This document shows positions 38,478 to 45,940 of a stretch of 64,000 bases of DNA, piece after piece (the stretch's first letter is position 1; each line of letters opens with the position of its first letter). The stretch spans positions 2,232,001-2,296,000 of the forward strand of contig NZ_CP097384.1 of assembly GCF_024584705.1 (NCBI RefSeq). Reading direction: 5' to 3'. The notes under the pieces were generated by a model. That model was not told where the DNA came from. It saw only the letters and a list, made by a program, of their open reading frames with translations, and ran no database searches. This DNA is from Blastopirellula sp. J2-11. GTDB lineage: Bacteria; Planctomycetota; Planctomycetia; Pirellulales; Pirellulaceae. The translations under genes were made by a program, and so were the position numbers.

Positions 38478-39581
38478 CTATTGATCGACCTGGCGCTGCA
38501 ATTCTTTTAGCAATTCTTGCAGGCGTGAGATCTCTTCGATCGTCGCTTCATCAACGTCGCCGGCTTGAATTCGTTGTTGCAATTGTCGCGCGTCCTCTTG
38601 AAGTCGGCGCAGTTGCGTCGGCGGCTCGGCGGGACGCGCGGGAGCGAGCTGACGCATGTTTCGCATTCGCAGCTCGTGTTGCGCACGCATCTCCTCCATC
38701 ATCTGCTGATGCTCGGCTCGCATGCGCGCCCATTGTTCGTCCATCTGTCGTATCGGCTGCGGAACGGCGAGTCCGTCTAAACGCAGCGGTGCAAAAAATC
38801 GCGGGCCCAGCATGCCTTGGGGGCCGGCAATCCGCGCTTGATACTGATCGTAGATTTCGGCCGCTTGGGGATGATCCTTGCGCAGCTCATCCAGATCGTC
38901 CGCTTCGGCGACTTGCGGCGCTTCGTTTCCCTCTCTCCACTCAACGCGGAGTGGGCCGTTCGGGGCTTTGTCAATTTCGACGTGACGTTCCCCGTCGGTG
39001 ATCTTGATCTGTTCGCGCCCGTTGTTGCGGACGGTCGACATGCTGAAGTTTCGTTCGCGTCCGCGTACTCCAGGCAACAAACGAATGTCGAAAGGATCAA
39101 ATCCGGCGATACGTCCATCGTCCCCTGGCGGCGCCGGTCGCATCCCTGGAATCGAGCGGGTTGAATGAACCGCCGTCGCTGCCAGCTTGGCGGCCGTCGC
39201 GTTGTCGCCATCAGCGATCTTTTTTAACGCCCCAAGAGCGGCGGCGCTGACGTCGCGGTCTTCGCTAGCAGCGAATGATTGGAGAATCTCGATCGACTGC
39301 GCAACCCGTTCGCCGGCGCCATCGCGACATGCTTCTTCTAGCGAAGCGATCGCCGCGGGGCCTGCATCACGCAATTGTTCGGCCGCTTCGCGTCGTTCCG
39401 CAAACGTATCGCTATCCAACTGGCGAATCGCTCGGCGGATGGTGCGATCCGTCTCTGCCGATTTTGGCGCCGCGTTAGCGACGGCAGGAGGATTCGGTTC
39501 TGTCGATTTTTCCGGTTCGGCGGCGACAGCGGGCAGACTTGCCAGCAGTAACAGCAGACATGCGAAGCTTCGTATCGACAT
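38478..39581 (-). CDS. Secreted HEAT-like/coiled-coil protein
   Basis: 367 residues. A signal peptide (MSIRSFACLLLLLASLPAVAA) precedes about 100 residues of HEAT/armadillo-type helical pairs (IRRAIRQLDSDTFAERREAAEQL, AALGALKKIADGD), then a Pro/Gly-rich segment and a long Gln/Arg/Met-rich C-terminal coil (MEEMRAQHELRMRNMRQL, LLKELQRQVDQ). Unknown function; periplasmic or surface structural role likely. Monocistronic, convergent with the GT39-like gene. Confidence 0.8.
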   Translation of the reverse strand: MSIRSFACLLLLLASLPAVAAEPEKSTEPNPPAVANAAPKSAETDRTIRRAIRQLDSDTFAERREAAEQLRDAGPAAIASLEEACRDGAGERVAQSIEILQSFAASEDRDVSAAALGALKKIADGDNATAAKLAATAVHSTRSIPGMRPAPPGDDGRIAGFDPFDIRLLPGVRGRERNFSMSTVRNNGREQIKITDGERHVEIDKAPNGPLRVEWREGNEAPQVAEADDLDELRKDHPQAAEIYDQYQARIAGPQGMLGPRFFAPLRLDGLAVPQPIRQMDEQWARMRAEHQQMMEEMRAQHELRMRNMRQLAPARPAEPPTQLRRLQEDARQLQQRIQAGDVDEATIEEISRLQELLKELQRQVDQ

Positions 39582-39702: not shown

Positions 39703-40491
39703 TTAATAGAGTCCCCAGCGGCGTTCTTTCGCCGGGAGAATTTCGAGGCAGGTTGTCCACCACCCGGTTTGGATCGTCTCAATAAACTCGGGCGGAAGTC
39801 GCTGGGCCGTCATCTCGCTGCTTAAACGACGAAAATCATACTCAAGCGGCACAAATTGCCAGCTTATGCCGGAATGAGGATCGACGGAAATTATCGCATA
39901 CCAGACCTCGGTTCGACCATCGTTGGCAGGGCGCCCCAAAACTCCTACGTTCACAAACGCTCGGCGGTTCGATAACTCGCGTCCCCAATGAATCCCGGTA
40001 TGGGTCGCCAAAATCAAATCGGCCTGCTGTTGGTCGGCGAGCCAATTCAAAAATGAAGTCGAAGTGGTCGACTCCCATAAGAATTCGTTAGTTCTTCGCG
40101 GGCTGCCATGGCACAGCAAAAGCTGGCGCCCTTCGATCTCCAGTCGGATCTCTGCTGGCAACGTGCACAAGTAGGCGCGGTTTTCGCTGGACGTGTTTTG
40201 CAGCGTGTAGTCATAGCTGATCTGGGCGAAGTGGTTGTCACGCGGATCGGTGTACCCGCACTGACAATCGTTCAGCCCGCGACCGATCGAATCGTCATAG
40301 TTACCGCGCACGACTTGGATTTCGTGCTGGTGAAGGAGGGGAAATACACGATCGGGATGGGGGCCGAATGCGCCGAGATCTCCGAGGCAAAACATCTGAT
40401 CCACGCCGCGTCGCTGAGCGTCGGCGATTGCGGCTTCCAGCGCGAGATAATTGTTGTAGATTCCGCCGAAGCAGGCGATGCGCGTCGTCAT
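39703..40491 (-). CDS. Divergent metallophosphatase-like protein
   Basis: 263 residues from the ATG at 40491, 4 bp after the radical SAM stop; an upstream extension is rejected. The calcineurin-like skeleton is clear: CLGDLGAFGP (Asp38), GNYDD (63-67), CHGSPR and ATHTGIHW. But the first metal motif, normally D-x-H-G-N, reads G10-I-Y12-N-N, so the Asp and His that hold metal 1 are missing, and the GNHD His is Tyr. Either a variant metal site or a non-catalytic binding protein. Last gene of the flavoprotein/radical SAM operon. Confidence 0.75.
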   Translation of the reverse strand: MTTRIACFGGIYNNYLALEAAIADAQRRGVDQMFCLGDLGAFGPHPDRVFPLLHQHEIQVVRGNYDDSIGRGLNDCQCGYTDPRDNHFAQISYDYTLQNTSSENRAYLCTLPAEIRLEIEGRQLLLCHGSPRRTNEFLWESTTSTSFLNWLADQQQADLILATHTGIHWGRELSNRRAFVNVGVLGRPANDGRTEVWYAIISVDPHSGISWQFVPLEYDFRRLSSEMTAQRLPPEFIETIQTGWWTTCLEILPAKERRWGLY

Positions 40492-40495
40492 GTCG

Positions 40496-41398
40496 TTAGC
40501 GATCTTTTCCGGTCGCCGGGGCCGAGGATGGATTGGCGCAAATCGATCCAAATTGATAGCAAGTGAAACAGGCGCCGTGTGAAACCTCAAATGGACGCAG
40601 AGATTGCGCGAGCGTTTTTCCTAGCAGCGAATCAGGCGACTCGATCAAGATCGGGCAAACGTGGACGCCGCGATCCGAGACGACGCGACTGTTTTCGCAA
40701 ACCAGTTGGGTCGAATCGAATCCCGCCCACATTTCAGCCGTGATCCGATCGTGATCAGCGTAGCCGCACGATCGCGACTCTTCGGCCCCAATCTGCAGCG
40801 TAGGCAACAGTTTAATCCGCGGTCGAGCATAGCCGATTTCTTTTAACGCATGGACGAACTCGGCGACGATGTGCGACTCTGCGGCGTCGCTCCAGGTGCG
40901 AACCGCGGTGATGATCGGCAGAAAGTTATGTTCCACCAGCAGCTTGACGCCGCTCATCGCGCGGACGAACGTCCCTTCGCCGCGGATAGGATCATTGCTC
41001 TCGGGTGAGAAGCCGTCGATCGAAACGCGGAACTCCAGCGAGTAGATCCCCTGCTCTTCCGCGTCTCGCAGTTGTCGTAGCCAGTCTGCTTTGAGCACGG
41101 TGCCGTTTGTCAGCACAGTGACAGGTCCATACGCGAGCGCGGCGATCAGGATCGGCACGATTTGGGGATGCAGAAAAGGTTCGCCGCCGGTGAAGTAGAA
41201 CTCTTTCACGCCCAGGGCCGCCGCTTCTTCCAAGCGAGACTCGACATCCGCCAAGGAAAGAAATGCGAAGGTGTTATTCTTCGGATGGCAACTGACAAAG
41301 CAATGATGACACGCCAAATTGCAGCGCAGCCCGGTGACTTGAAACCAGAGCGCGTCAAGATGAGATGGAACAACTTGCGGAAGGTCGCCTGCAGGCAC
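40496..41398 (-). CDS. Radical SAM protein with extra C-terminal cysteines
   Basis: About 300 residues from the GTG at 41398, chosen because the upstream flavoprotein ends 8 bp before it; a TTG at 41464 would overlap that gene. The cluster motif is CNLACHHC (Cys26, 30, 33), then FTGGEPFL for SAM, and VSIDGFSPESND. The C-terminus has CENS, HVCPI and CFTCYQFGSIC, six Cys that could hold one or two auxiliary clusters as in SPASM proteins, with length close to the short SPASM group. Substrate unknown; no small peptide precursor is visible in the operon. Confidence 0.82.
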   Translation of the reverse strand: MPAGDLPQVVPSHLDALWFQVTGLRCNLACHHCFVSCHPKNNTFAFLSLADVESRLEEAAALGVKEFYFTGGEPFLHPQIVPILIAALAYGPVTVLTNGTVLKADWLRQLRDAEEQGIYSLEFRVSIDGFSPESNDPIRGEGTFVRAMSGVKLLVEHNFLPIITAVRTWSDAAESHIVAEFVHALKEIGYARPRIKLLPTLQIGAEESRSCGYADHDRITAEMWAGFDSTQLVCENSRVVSDRGVHVCPILIESPDSLLGKTLAQSLRPFEVSHGACFTCYQFGSICANPSSAPATGKDR

Positions 41399-41405
41399 GC
41401 GAACT

Positions 41406-42683
41406 CTATTGTTGGTTGGCTGGTAAGAACTGGCGATAAAGATCCAGATTCTTGCGATCCCCAATGATGGTGAATAGCTGACGAATCTGGTCGAGGCCGT
41501 TTTTTATCAGAAACTGTGAGTTGCGTCCGTAACTTTTTGCGCCAAGCAGATAAAAATCGGGCTCGGGATTGATCAGCAGTTCGGCCTCGTCGGTCGGTTG
41601 GGCGAGACAATCGGCGGAACCATTCTCGAGCAGTTTGGCGGCCAGTTTCAGCGGACCTTCGGTCGCATAGCAGTAATGCATCTGCAGCGAGCGGGTTAGT
41701 TCGACGTTGGGGAGAAAGCCGACGTTGGCGATCACCCGATCAAACTCATGCATCCCTTGGTGAGTTCCGGCCAGCGTAACTTGAAAGCGGCCGCTGTGCG
41801 CGTCGTAGTGGATTGCCGTGACGGACGAAGTGGGCCAATGGGCGACGTGGGGCTCGCTGTTGGCGGCAAACTCGTTCGCTTGCATGGCCAGATGATCGCG
41901 GGCCGTCAACGGATCAGCGGCGAATCGCCGCAGAGGGCCGGCCGTATCGGCTTGATTTTCTTTCCGTGTGATCCAAGTTGTCTGCGTGTCCAGCGCTTCT
42001 CGCGCCAGTTGTCCTAGGGCGCAGATATTGGTCGCGGCCGAGTAGCCAGAGCCGATGACCAACGTATGTTGGCCGGCGTACTTGTCCCGTTCGCCCAACA
42101 GGATATCAGGGAGACCGAACTCAATATGCGCACGAGCCGATTGCTCGCCGAGCGCCGGAACTCCGCCGCAGCCGATCCAGCCGGGCTGACCAAATAGTCC
42201 CGTGCAGTCAATCAGCACATCGCTATGATCGATTTGTTCGCGTCCATCCTGGTTGCGCAGCATCACCACAAAGTCGGCGTCACGTCGCGACTCTTCGTCG
42301 ATCAAGTCCGACTTCGAGAGCCCTGCGCGACCGGCTGCGATCGCGGTCCAGCCGCAATGGAGAGAGTCGGACAACAGGTCCGATTCGGCCAATGGTTGCA
42401 AATAGCGTTCGACATAATCCTGGCCGGTCAACAGTTCGTCTTCGGCAGGCAATTGCAGATCGTCCGCCGACTGGGCGGCCAAGGCGCTGCGGGCCAACGG
42501 TGAACTGTTCATGCCGAACGGGCTGAACATTCGTACGCTTCCCCAGCGGCGAATCGATTCGGCCGGGCGCCCTTGCTCATAAATCGCGACGTCGTAGCCA
42601 AGAAAACGAGCGTAGAGGCCAGCTTCGAGACCGATCGGCCCCGCGCCAAGGATCGTTATTTTCGCTGGAGCATCGACAGACAT
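41406..42683 (-). CDS. FAD-dependent oxidoreductase, monooxygenase-like
   Basis: 425 residues. N-terminal FAD loop GAGPIGLEAGLYA (13-25), a second dinucleotide loop VIGSGYSAATN near residue 210 for NAD(P)H, and a flavoprotein core similar to FMO/Trx-reductase-type proteins (FGMNSSPLA, DCTGLFGQPGW). The ATG at 42683 is followed 3' by the radical SAM and phosphatase-like genes in one transcript. The FMO signature FxGxxxHxxxY is not seen, so N-oxidation of a small molecule is only a guess. Confidence 0.82.
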   Translation of the reverse strand: MSVDAPAKITILGAGPIGLEAGLYARFLGYDVAIYEQGRPAESIRRWGSVRMFSPFGMNSSPLARSALAAQSADDLQLPAEDELLTGQDYVERYLQPLAESDLLSDSLHCGWTAIAAGRAGLSKSDLIDEESRRDADFVVMLRNQDGREQIDHSDVLIDCTGLFGQPGWIGCGGVPALGEQSARAHIEFGLPDILLGERDKYAGQHTLVIGSGYSAATNICALGQLAREALDTQTTWITRKENQADTAGPLRRFAADPLTARDHLAMQANEFAANSEPHVAHWPTSSVTAIHYDAHSGRFQVTLAGTHQGMHEFDRVIANVGFLPNVELTRSLQMHYCYATEGPLKLAAKLLENGSADCLAQPTDEAELLINPEPDFYLLGAKSYGRNSQFLIKNGLDQIRQLFTIIGDRKNLDLYRQFLPANQQ

Positions 42684-42957: not shown

Positions 42958-44091
42958 ATGGCAGGTAAAATTTCACGCGTTTTGATCGTAGATGATTCGG
43001 CGCTCATGCGGACGTTGATTGCCGATCAATTGGCCGATGCGGCGGGAATTGAAGTTTGCGGCGTGGCTAAAGACGGTTATCAGGCCCTCGAAATGATGAA
43101 GCAACTGCAGCCGGACGTCATTACCCTGGATGTGCAAATGCCGGGAATGGACGGACTTGAAACGTTGGATCGTCTGTTAGCCTTGAAGCCGATTCCGGTC
43201 ATCATGGTCAGCGCCATGACCCAGTTAGGTGGAGACATTACGCTTGATGCGCTGGAACGGGGCGCGTTTGACTACATCGCCAAGCCGACCGGTTTGGCTC
43301 AGGCCGAATCAGTCATGCGCGACGAACTGGTTCGGAAGATTCGTACCGTGGCCGGCGCCGATTTCGCCAAAGTGTTAGAAGTTCGTCGCTCGCGTGCCGA
43401 AGTCCGGCGACAACGCCGCAGCGCCGCCGGATTAACTGCTAAGTCGATCAATCCCCCGGTGCGAACGAAAACGGTCGCGCCGATCGAATGCCCATGTCGG
43501 TGTATCGCAATCGGGATTTCGACCGGCGGGCCTCCTGCGCTGACTTCCTTGTTTGAATCATTGCCGGCCGGGTTGCCGCCGATCGTCGTCGTTCAGCACA
43601 TGCCGGAGCAATTCACCAGAGCGTTCGCCAAACGACTGAATTCGATTTCGCAGATTGAAGTGAAAGAAGCGGCGACCGGGGATATGCTGGCGCCAGGATG
43701 TGCTTATATCGCTCAAGGGGGAAAGCATCTCGAGATCCGCCGTCAAACTCGCAGCCAGATGCGACTGGAGGTCTTCGCCGGAGACCCAGTCAGCGGGCAT
43801 CGTCCGTCGGTCGATGTCATGATGCGCTCGGCGGCCAAAGCGTTTGGCGACGCTTGTCTGGGGGTGGTCATGACCGGCATGGGGCGTGACGGATCGGAGG
43901 GATGTAAAGCGATTCGGGAAGCTGGCGGATACGTCTTGGGGCAGAACGAAGCAAGTTCCGACATTTACGGAATGAATCGCGTCGCGTTTCAAGAGGGAAA
44001 CGTCGACAAACAGTTCGACTTGCAGGATGCGGCGCAGACCATCGTGCGCGAGACCAAAAGAGTTCGCGGCGCCCCGTTGGCGACGCGATAA
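42958..44091 (+). CDS. cheB: CheB chemotaxis response regulator/methylesterase
   Basis: 377 residues. Receiver domain (1-125) with Asp12-Asp13, phospho-acceptor Asp58 and Lys109; linker; methylesterase domain with Ser188 in GISTGGPP, His214 in HMPEQF and Asp311 in GMGRDG, the full triad. It demethylates chemoreceptors. No cheR, cheA, cheW or receptor gene is near, so it works with an unlinked cluster. A weak promoter, TTGGAG-N17-TATTTT, is at 42843-42871. Confidence 0.95.
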   Translation: MAGKISRVLIVDDSALMRTLIADQLADAAGIEVCGVAKDGYQALEMMKQLQPDVITLDVQMPGMDGLETLDRLLALKPIPVIMVSAMTQLGGDITLDALERGAFDYIAKPTGLAQAESVMRDELVRKIRTVAGADFAKVLEVRRSRAEVRRQRRSAAGLTAKSINPPVRTKTVAPIECPCRCIAIGISTGGPPALTSLFESLPAGLPPIVVVQHMPEQFTRAFAKRLNSISQIEVKEAATGDMLAPGCAYIAQGGKHLEIRRQTRSQMRLEVFAGDPVSGHRPSVDVMMRSAAKAFGDACLGVVMTGMGRDGSEGCKAIREAGGYVLGQNEASSDIYGMNRVAFQEGNVDKQFDLQDAAQTIVRETKRVRGAPLATR

Positions 44092-44096
44092 GCGAA

Positions 44097-45269
44097 TCAG
44101 CTGCGATCGACGCGGAACGGCGACAAATCAAAATCGACGTCGACACCACGGATCATGCGACCTAGCAGCACGGCGGTCGCAGGAGAAAGATGCAAGCCGC
44201 TGCGAAAATGACCTGCGGCGACGTAGGCGTTCGCGATCCCCGGCATCGCGCCTATATAAGGTATCCCGTCAATACTCGCCGGCCGCAGCCCGGCCCAGGT
44301 TTGCTCGACGACGGCGTCTTGCAAGCGCGGAACCAACTCGCAGGCGAAGTCGCGCAGTTCGCAGGCGATCTCCTCCGTCGTTGAGCAGTCGAATCCTGCT
44401 TCTTCGACCGTCGAGCCGACCAGAACCAGGCCATCTTGCCGAGGAACCAAATAGCGAGGCCCTTCGTTGAGCGGCGTTGGTAAGAAACGCGTCCCTCCGT
44501 TGAGCAGCAACATCTGTCCCCGGATCGGCTCGATCTCAGGTGTTTTCGCTGCGTGCGAAAACCCGACCTGCGCCAACAGTGAATCCGTTAAGCGTTGCGA
44601 CCAGGCTCCAGCGGCGATGCAGTACCGATCGGCGGTGAACGGTCCATGATTGGTGACCAGCGCGGCGACGCGATCCTGCTGGAGCTGAAACTCGATCGCT
44701 GCGGTCGTCTCTTGGAACACGACCCCCCGTTGCTGGCATGCCTGATGAAGCGCTTGCAGGTGCCGGGGATTTCGCAGGATCGCTTCGTCCGGAAGATGAT
44801 AGGCGGCGCGAGCTTGGACAGCGGTCGCCAACGGCGGCAAGCGACGATGAAGTTCGTCCGAGGAAATCCGCTCGACGGCGATCCCTTCCTCGATCCATTG
44901 GCTCATCGTGGTCGCCAGCGCGGCGGCTTCTCCAGCTTTGCGCGCAATATAGTAGCCTCCACACCGTTCTAGCTGGTTGTCGATGCCGGTCTCCTCACGC
45001 AGGCGGATCGACCACTCGGCGTGCAATTGATGACTGAGAGCTCGCAGTTGCTCTTGCGGTTCGACCGCTTGGCCGACCGTCGCTGGAGGCAATAATCCGG
45101 CGCCTGCCCAAGAGGCGGCTTTGCCGACCGAAGCTTGTTCGAGCAACGTTACCGACATTCCGTGCGTCGCCAGTTCGTAGGCGAGCGAAAGTCCGATGAC
45201 GCCTCCCCCGATGATCAGGCAATCGGCGCTGGGGGAGGAAGAGAGCGTACGGGGAGAATCAGAGTTCAC
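44097..45269 (-). CDS. thiO: Glycine oxidase ThiO-like
   Basis: 390 residues from the GTG at 45269, which overlaps the previous TGA (GTGA). FAD loop GGGVIGLSLA, AASWAGAGLLPP, IEPIRGQMLLL and the ThiO C-terminus GIPYIGAMPGIANAYVAAGHFRSG. Glycine oxidase supplies iminoglycine for thiazole synthesis. A longer TTG start at 45281 is possible but adds only a few residues. It is third in an operon glutaredoxin-DUF2064-thiO. thiC is 30 kb away, so thiamine genes are split. Confidence 0.88.
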   Translation of the reverse strand: MNSDSPRTLSSSPSADCLIIGGGVIGLSLAYELATHGMSVTLLEQASVGKAASWAGAGLLPPATVGQAVEPQEQLRALSHQLHAEWSIRLREETGIDNQLERCGGYYIARKAGEAAALATTMSQWIEEGIAVERISSDELHRRLPPLATAVQARAAYHLPDEAILRNPRHLQALHQACQQRGVVFQETTAAIEFQLQQDRVAALVTNHGPFTADRYCIAAGAWSQRLTDSLLAQVGFSHAAKTPEIEPIRGQMLLLNGGTRFLPTPLNEGPRYLVPRQDGLVLVGSTVEEAGFDCSTTEEIACELRDFACELVPRLQDAVVEQTWAGLRPASIDGIPYIGAMPGIANAYVAAGHFRSGLHLSPATAVLLGRMIRGVDVDFDLSPFRVDRS

Positions 45270-45940
45270 AGCGGTGGACAATCGGCGAGTATCTTAGAAA
45301 GTTCAGTACGCAATTGACGCAAATCAAGATCAGCGTCGTCATGCGACAAATCGGCCTGCAGGCGTTGCAAGTCATCCCAGGTATCGACATCGTACCAAGT
45401 TGGCGTCTGCAGAGGTCGCAGGCCGAGCGCGTGACAGCGGGCTAATGTCTGGGTCAGGACGTCGGAAGTGCTCCAAGAGATATCGGTGAAAAGCTGCTCG
45501 CAGGGAGAATTCATTCCGATTGCGCAATACCCGCCATCTTCGGCCGGGCCGAGCACGACATCACATCGTTCCAGTTGGCTGAAGGCTTGCTGGAGGTAAG
45601 CGGTTGGCAGATTGGGACTATCGGACCCGATTAACAGGGCTTTCGTCGCACCGCCGGCCATCGCGGTAGTGAAAAAGTGGGAGATCCTGTCTCCTAGCGA
45701 ACCGGACGACTGCGACTGCAACTGCCAAGCGTCGCCGACCACTGTCGCAAACGACTGCTCCGCGTCAGCGGGAGCATAGGCGAGCACGCGCCGATCACCG
45801 AGCGACTGAAATCGCTTGACGGCCGAACGCACAAACTGATGATGAACTGCGGCGGCGGCCGGCAAGCCGATGGCAGCGCCAAGCCGGGTCTTTACTTCGC
45901 CGGCTCGCCAATGCTTGGCGAACATTCCGAGAACTTCCAT
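45266..45940 (-). CDS. DUF2064/TIGR04282-type glycosyltransferase-like protein
   Basis: 224 residues. MFAKHWRAGEVKTRLG at the start (P-loop-like nucleotide-binding of the CofC/MobA-like fold) and LIGSDSPNLP, VLGPAEDGGYCAIGM in the middle are family signatures. Databases label part of this family arsenosugar glycosyltransferase; no arsenosugar radical SAM or ArsM is adjacent, so this use is not supported here. Overlaps the thiO start and lies 3 bp after the glutaredoxin stop. Confidence 0.82.
   Translation of the reverse strand: MEVLGMFAKHWRAGEVKTRLGAAIGLPAAAAVHHQFVRSAVKRFQSLGDRRVLAYAPADAEQSFATVVGDAWQLQSQSSGSLGDRISHFFTTAMAGGATKALLIGSDSPNLPTAYLQQAFSQLERCDVVLGPAEDGGYCAIGMNSPCEQLFTDISWSTSDVLTQTLARCHALGLRPLQTPTWYDVDTWDDLQRLQADLSHDDADLDLRQLRTELSKILADCPPL

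Follow-up and report, generated by a model that had tools for sequence, protein, structure and literature searches.

Our analysis indicates that the three-gene operon at positions 39703–42683 of the window (the whole 64,000-nucleotide stretch of Blastopirellula sp. J2-11 DNA) is probably part of an arsenosugar-type organoarsenical pathway in which a radical SAM enzyme replaces ArsS, the known arsenosugar radical SAM enzyme. The reading follows from two properties of the family of this enzyme, namely its fusion with or adjacency to the arsenite methyltransferase ArsM and its mutual exclusion with ArsS, which give an organoarsenical clue to a gene set for which the initial annotation had known no characterised pathway. 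At the level of the family this assignment has good support, and for the set in the window it is made by family, not from the local genome alone. The reaction itself and the parts played by the flavoprotein and the phosphoesterase are proposals.

The source genome (G000, 6.43 Mb) is a single contig, of which the window covers G000:C1:2232001–2296000. The genes for an FAD/NAD(P)H-type oxidoreductase (P0001, 425 aa, 42683–41406), a radical SAM enzyme (P0002, 300 aa, GTG start, 41398–40496) and a degenerate calcineurin-like metallophosphoesterase (MPE; P0003, 262 aa, 40491–39703) follow one another on the minus strand, separated by only 7 and 4 bp, which confirms the tight packing first described. 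Pfam agrees with all three identities, with Pyr_redox_3 above cut-off for P0001 and Metallophos_2 and Metallophos above cut-off for P0003; none of the three proteins scores above the cut-off of a curated NCBIfam model (for P0002, among the best 25 matches). For the radical SAM gene, the mechanical list of open reading frames gives a TTG start at 41464, and the GTG at 41398 fits the aligned relatives better. A scan for promoters and terminators gave no clear excess over shuffled sequence.

P0001 carries two dinucleotide-binding motifs, GAGPIG (residues 13–18) and GSGYSA (residues 211–216), and is a two-Rossmann flavoprotein. It shares the two-Rossmann FAD/NAD(P)H fold with YpdA and ArsO at weak similarity but belongs to neither family, scoring 25.5 bits for YpdA (cut-off 339.9) and 22.6 bits for ArsO (cut-off 425), and it has no match among PDB sequences.

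Upstream of the set, also on the minus strand, lie genes for a ThiO-like FAD amine oxidase (44097–45281, TIGR02352 above cut-off) and a TIGR04282 glycosyltransferase-like protein (45266–45940, 183.9 bits against a cut-off of 134). Gene maps show that the former is a conserved upstream neighbour of the set in Pirellulales and that the latter is kept among relatives; the ThiO-like protein may have a part in the pathway. In the window's genus a gene on the opposite strand for a CheB-type response regulator/methylesterase (42958–44091, plus strand) separates the ThiO-like gene from the FAD gene, an insertion common to the genus and a few distant genomes (L117, L119) and absent from most relatives. 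The gene after the MPE on the same strand (38478–39581) has weak HEAT-like and coiled-coil matches, and its position is kept in the genus and in some relatives.

The radical SAM protein shares 94% identity with its counterpart in Blastopirellula marina DSM 3645, and we compared 55 of its relatives, drawn from contigs that span about ten phyla. The pair of radical SAM and MPE genes recurs in Planctomycetota, Acidobacteriota, Myxococcota, Zixibacteria and Bacteroidota; the MPE directly follows in 38 of the 53 loci with room for it, and the FAD gene is present in 20. Among 197 Pirellulales genomes the radical SAM gene was found in 36, the MPE in 36 and both in 33, and where the two are unlinked the MPE was located elsewhere in all 14 good-quality genomes searched. 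The FAD gene occurs in 34 of the 36 genomes with the radical SAM gene vs. 27 of the other 161, and a frequent gene order in Pirellulales is TIGR04282–ThiO–FAD–radical SAM–MPE. In Acidobacteriota, which give separate support, 21 of 297 genomes carry the radical SAM gene, with the MPE following it in 19 of 19 testable loci. The three genes, being neighbours in many phyla and co-occurring even when apart, are a small conserved pathway unit, as had been suspected from the window's sequence. Neighbours of the unlinked MPE genes in family f7, recognised by eye as LarB-like and NAD(P)HX dehydratase-like, were considered as partners and set aside: they probably reflect the background of the lineage, as two of the flanking genes have relatives close to the set in the window as well.

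The link to arsenic is most direct in nine loci of Brocadiales-type Planctomycetota and NC10, where the radical SAM protein is fused to an ArsM domain. Four more loci carry a separate ArsM gene, three of them together with the MPE and FAD genes, and in Acidobacteriota ArsM adjoins the radical SAM gene in about six of the 21 cases. Neighbours in relatives include TIGR04282, TIGR04283 and TIGR04169 (peroxidase-like), all named by NCBIfam for arsenosugar biosynthesis, and the flavoprotein at the NC10 locus L073 is of the same PRK06370 type as in an ArsS operon. In the literature, of which few subscription papers were reached, we found nothing linking the set or its families to arsenic.

Several details of these loci should be recorded. 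A permease gene stands between the MPE and ArsM at L061 (1871–3004); it was at first read as PitA, a reading dropped in favour of the NCBIfam match to a sulfate permease, itself weak (78.6 bits of 400). A second, divergent radical SAM gene lies beside the fused gene at L081 (1–870) and L083 (3825–5714). In the Acidobacteriota relative at L266 (33% identity) the C-terminal cysteines are arranged differently, and an ArsM-like gene lies immediately upstream. Apparent in-frame stops in Acidobacteriota radical SAM genes, considered as recoding, are ordinary terminal stops, the alignment model extending beyond the protein end.

In Pirellulales the partner is a long form of ArsM, found in 46 of the 197 genomes. 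Its cysteines (26/27, 50, 177 and 229) have the same spacing as those of BgArsM (30, 54, 181 and 233; PMC8552651), and its nearest model is that of the arsinothricin ArsM, NF040538 (349–353 bits, below the cut-off of 500). Long ArsM is present in 22 of the 36 genomes with the radical SAM gene vs. 24 of the 161 without it (Fisher p = 5 × 10−8, a value that overstates independence, as the genomes are related). Short ArsM alone shows no association (7 of 36 vs. 38 of 161 Pirellulales genomes), which rules it out as the partner across the order. Some form of ArsM occurs in 23 of 25 good-quality genomes with the radical SAM gene and in 52 of 135 without it; in the two remaining good-quality genomes, G106 and G057, no ArsM was found. 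Three genomes carrying the radical SAM gene also contain short ArsM-like genes interrupted by one in-frame TGA each (G004:C194:73054–73767, G022:C116:47–697, G022:C86:47–697 and G051:C217:1216–1893), possibly selenoprotein ArsMs.

The second property is the exclusion of ArsS, defined here as TIGR04167 above its curated cut-off (300 bits) and present in 34 of the 197 Pirellulales genomes. Among the 46 genomes with long ArsM, 21 have only the radical SAM gene of the present family, 21 only ArsS, one both and three neither (Fisher p = 6 × 10−9, a rough value given that the genomes are related). The MPE is present in two of the three genomes with neither, which makes a gap in the assembly likely, and G108, which carries both, contains a pair of long ArsMs, of which one adjoins ArsS. 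In six loci read from genomes lacking the present family, long ArsM adjoins a radical SAM gene of a single cluster, that of ArsS; two of these neighbours were scanned and both are ArsS above cut-off. In the loci read from genomes with the present family, no radical SAM gene adjoins long ArsM. The ArsM tree requires at least three changes of partner on well-supported branches, and six at best, so the exchange of partners is likely to have occurred more than once.

P0002 itself has the CxxxCxxC motif for the SAM-binding [4Fe-4S] cluster (C26, C30 and C33; 41300–41323, minus strand), invariant in the alignment. The initial annotation had counted six extra cysteines near the C-terminus; six indeed follow residue 200 (211, 234, 248, 277, 280 and 287), five of them invariant in 33 relatives in the arrangement C234-x13-C248 ... 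C277-x2-C280-x6-C287 (40538–40699, minus strand), and they are likely to bind an auxiliary Fe-S cluster in a SPASM/twitch-like domain. The structure is predicted confidently (pLDDT 93.4), the nearest folds being SkfB, SuiB and BlsE, and the best NCBIfam match is Rv1681 (104 bits of 380).

The solved folds closest to P0002 are peptide and nucleoside enzymes. Together with the match to Rv1681 and the many loci in Myxococcota, Eisenbacteria and Zixibacteria at which the radical SAM–MPE pair stands alone with no arsenic gene nearby, they would suit a set acting on a peptide, cofactor or nucleoside, with ArsM as an occasional partner or a recruited methyltransferase. We regard this as rather unlikely: in the gene maps examined (open reading frames of at least 60 aa), no conserved small precursor gene adjoined the pair, and the ArsM fusion, the ArsS exclusion and the partner switching in the ArsM tree are hard to explain otherwise.

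The resemblance of P0002 to ArsS is distant. Its score against TIGR04167 is 42.7 bits (cut-off 300), so it is not a member. Like ArsS, it combines CxxxCxxC with a similar C-x13/14-C ... CxxC-x6/7-C layout, and its family shares with ArsS the long ArsM type of partner and the TIGR04282/TIGR04283 neighbours. Unlike ArsS, it lacks ArsS-conserved motifs such as CDFNQM, sits on a distant branch, and comes with the MPE and a different flavoprotein. A profile comparison with ArsS gave 98% probability over 238 columns, with the core and C234 and C248 aligned, a match that is in part expected for any radical SAM protein with such a domain. In the radical SAM tree ArsS falls far outside, the fused forms branch close to the base and the ArsM-adjacent forms are scattered; this shape would fit an early arsenic role, the root resting on a distant outgroup.

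We infer the reactions and their order as follows. An ArsM would supply methylated trivalent arsenic, and P0002, standing in for ArsS, would cleave SAM reductively and join the derived radical, most likely 5'-deoxyadenosyl, to the arsenic, creating a C-As bond of a second kind. A redox role is probable for the flavoprotein, which would either adjust the state of an arsenical or donate electrons. The MPE, related to Ap4A hydrolases, may bind or process an adenosine-like or phosphorylated intermediate, and the neighbouring TIGR04282 protein may glycosylate the product. A bolder version, which we put forward only tentatively, is that the set is a second, independent route to adenosyl- or ribosyl-arsenic, in which a non-ArsS radical SAM enzyme works with an obligate MPE partner, descended from an Ap4A-hydrolase-like phosphoesterase and turned by the loss of one metal site into a one-metal or metal-free handler of an arseno-nucleoside, leading to an organoarsenical that the ArsS route does not make.

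To our knowledge, few enzymes form C-As bonds other than methyl-arsenic. If the proposed pathway is correct, a radical SAM family is added to ArsS and ArsL as makers of such bonds, planctomycetes, acidobacteria, myxobacteria and other bacteria are predicted to produce organoarsenicals, and a flavoprotein and a degenerate phosphoesterase are named as partners in the late, poorly understood steps of arsenosugar-type pathways.

The transferred group is the point at which ArsL has to be considered. In the arsQML cluster of Burkholderia gladioli, ArsL is a C-As bond-forming radical SAM enzyme of 428 aa with CX3CX2C at residues 194–201 (PMC8552651). The P0002 family resembles it as a radical SAM gene beside ArsM, and P0002 differs in the two features compared, length (300 aa) and motif position (26–33); adenosyl and aminocarboxypropyl transfer are not told apart by sequence. 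An ArsL-like P0002 would attach a SAM-derived 3-amino-3-carboxypropyl group to arsenic, and the set would make an arsinothricin-like amino acid. The arsML layout (PMC8552651) is matched by the ArsM–radical SAM pairing, and the arsinothricin model gives long ArsM its highest score. Long ArsM, however, pairs equally often with true ArsS, which makes the type of ArsM uninformative on this point, and the usual neighbours are the TIGR04282/TIGR04283 sugar-pathway genes; we therefore think an ArsL-like reaction improbable.

Turning to the window's own organism, the arsenosugar-type assignment draws on the family. Long ArsM, the fused or neighbouring partner of the radical SAM gene in other bacteria, is absent from the window's genus, and the searches of the order found neither ArsS (no TIGR04167 match) nor long ArsM in the window's genome. 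ACR3, an ArsC-like reductase and a short ArsM form one cluster about 2 Mb from the set, the last two scoring just or somewhat below their cut-offs. The ArsM partner that accompanies ArsS is thus found for P0002 at the level of the family, and in the window's genome there is only a short ArsM elsewhere; the genus may use short ArsM instead of the long form.

The predicted structure of P0003 (pLDDT 90.9) has SapH, 1nnw, 2gju and 3rqz as the closest folds, and Z-scores of 24–26 to SapH, 1nnw and 3rqz confirm the calcineurin-like fold. The match to SapH, an asymmetric Ap4A hydrolase (3qfm/3qfn), extends over 244 residues (Z 26.2, 24% identity). SapH has full DxH and GHxH motifs; P0003 has Gly10, Tyr12 and Gly166 in their place. 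Alignment with 3qfm and with relatives shows that GGIYNN (residues 9–14; 40450–40467, this and the following on the minus strand) replaces SDIHGN, with Asp changed to Gly10 and His to Tyr12; that the bridging Asp38 is kept in GD (residues 37–38; 40378–40383); that GNYD (residues 63–66; 40294–40305) keeps Asn64 and changes His to Tyr65; and that His128 is kept in CHGSP (40108–40110). At HTG (residues 164–166; 39994–40002), corresponding to the HxH of GHxH, His164 is kept and the second His has become Gly166.

The altered GIYNN and GNYD motifs noticed earlier are therefore real, and Gly10, Tyr12, Asp38, Asn64, Tyr65, His128, His164 and Gly166 are all invariant in 36 relatives, which reach down to 52% identity and come from about ten phyla. 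Such invariance means that the changes are neither chance nor a sequencing slip, and the strong conservation indicates a specific site rather than decay; C76 and C78 are likewise invariant. The complete two-metal ligand set (DxH, GD, GNH, H and GHxH) is not present: the three private ligands of one metal site are replaced (G10, Y12 and G166), and the other site keeps all four of its ligands (D38, N64, H128 and H164). Under the usual metal assignment of the superfamily, as in GpdQ, which we take to hold here, one site is gone and the other whole. Judged by these residues, P0003 cannot form a normal two-metal centre. The initial annotation had proposed a binding protein instead of a phosphatase; P0003 may have such a substrate-binding role or, with one complete ligand set invariant, may be a one-metal enzyme. 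The MPE is a clear case of an enzyme fold that loses a catalytic site under strong selection.

That P0003 alone is an active two-metal phosphoesterase with other ligands, performing an ordinary phosphate-removing step, is unlikely: it has the fold of SapH (Z 26) and one whole invariant ligand set, and SapH carries Trp at the usual His of GNH, so that GNYD alone permits activity, but the three private ligands of the other site are an invariant Gly, Tyr and Gly, and Brocadiales-type relatives keep DIH, GNHD and GHTH. MPE-like hits in the genomes with fused radical SAM–ArsM genes, tried as the degenerate MPE, were assigned to a related family only, their motifs being intact. The related phosphoesterases at the Brocadiales-type loci L167–L172, which carry the fused gene, keep DIH, GNHD or GNHE, and GHTH; five of the six have a DCxC-like stretch, as the degenerate MPE does, and these phosphoesterases are possibly its close active relatives.
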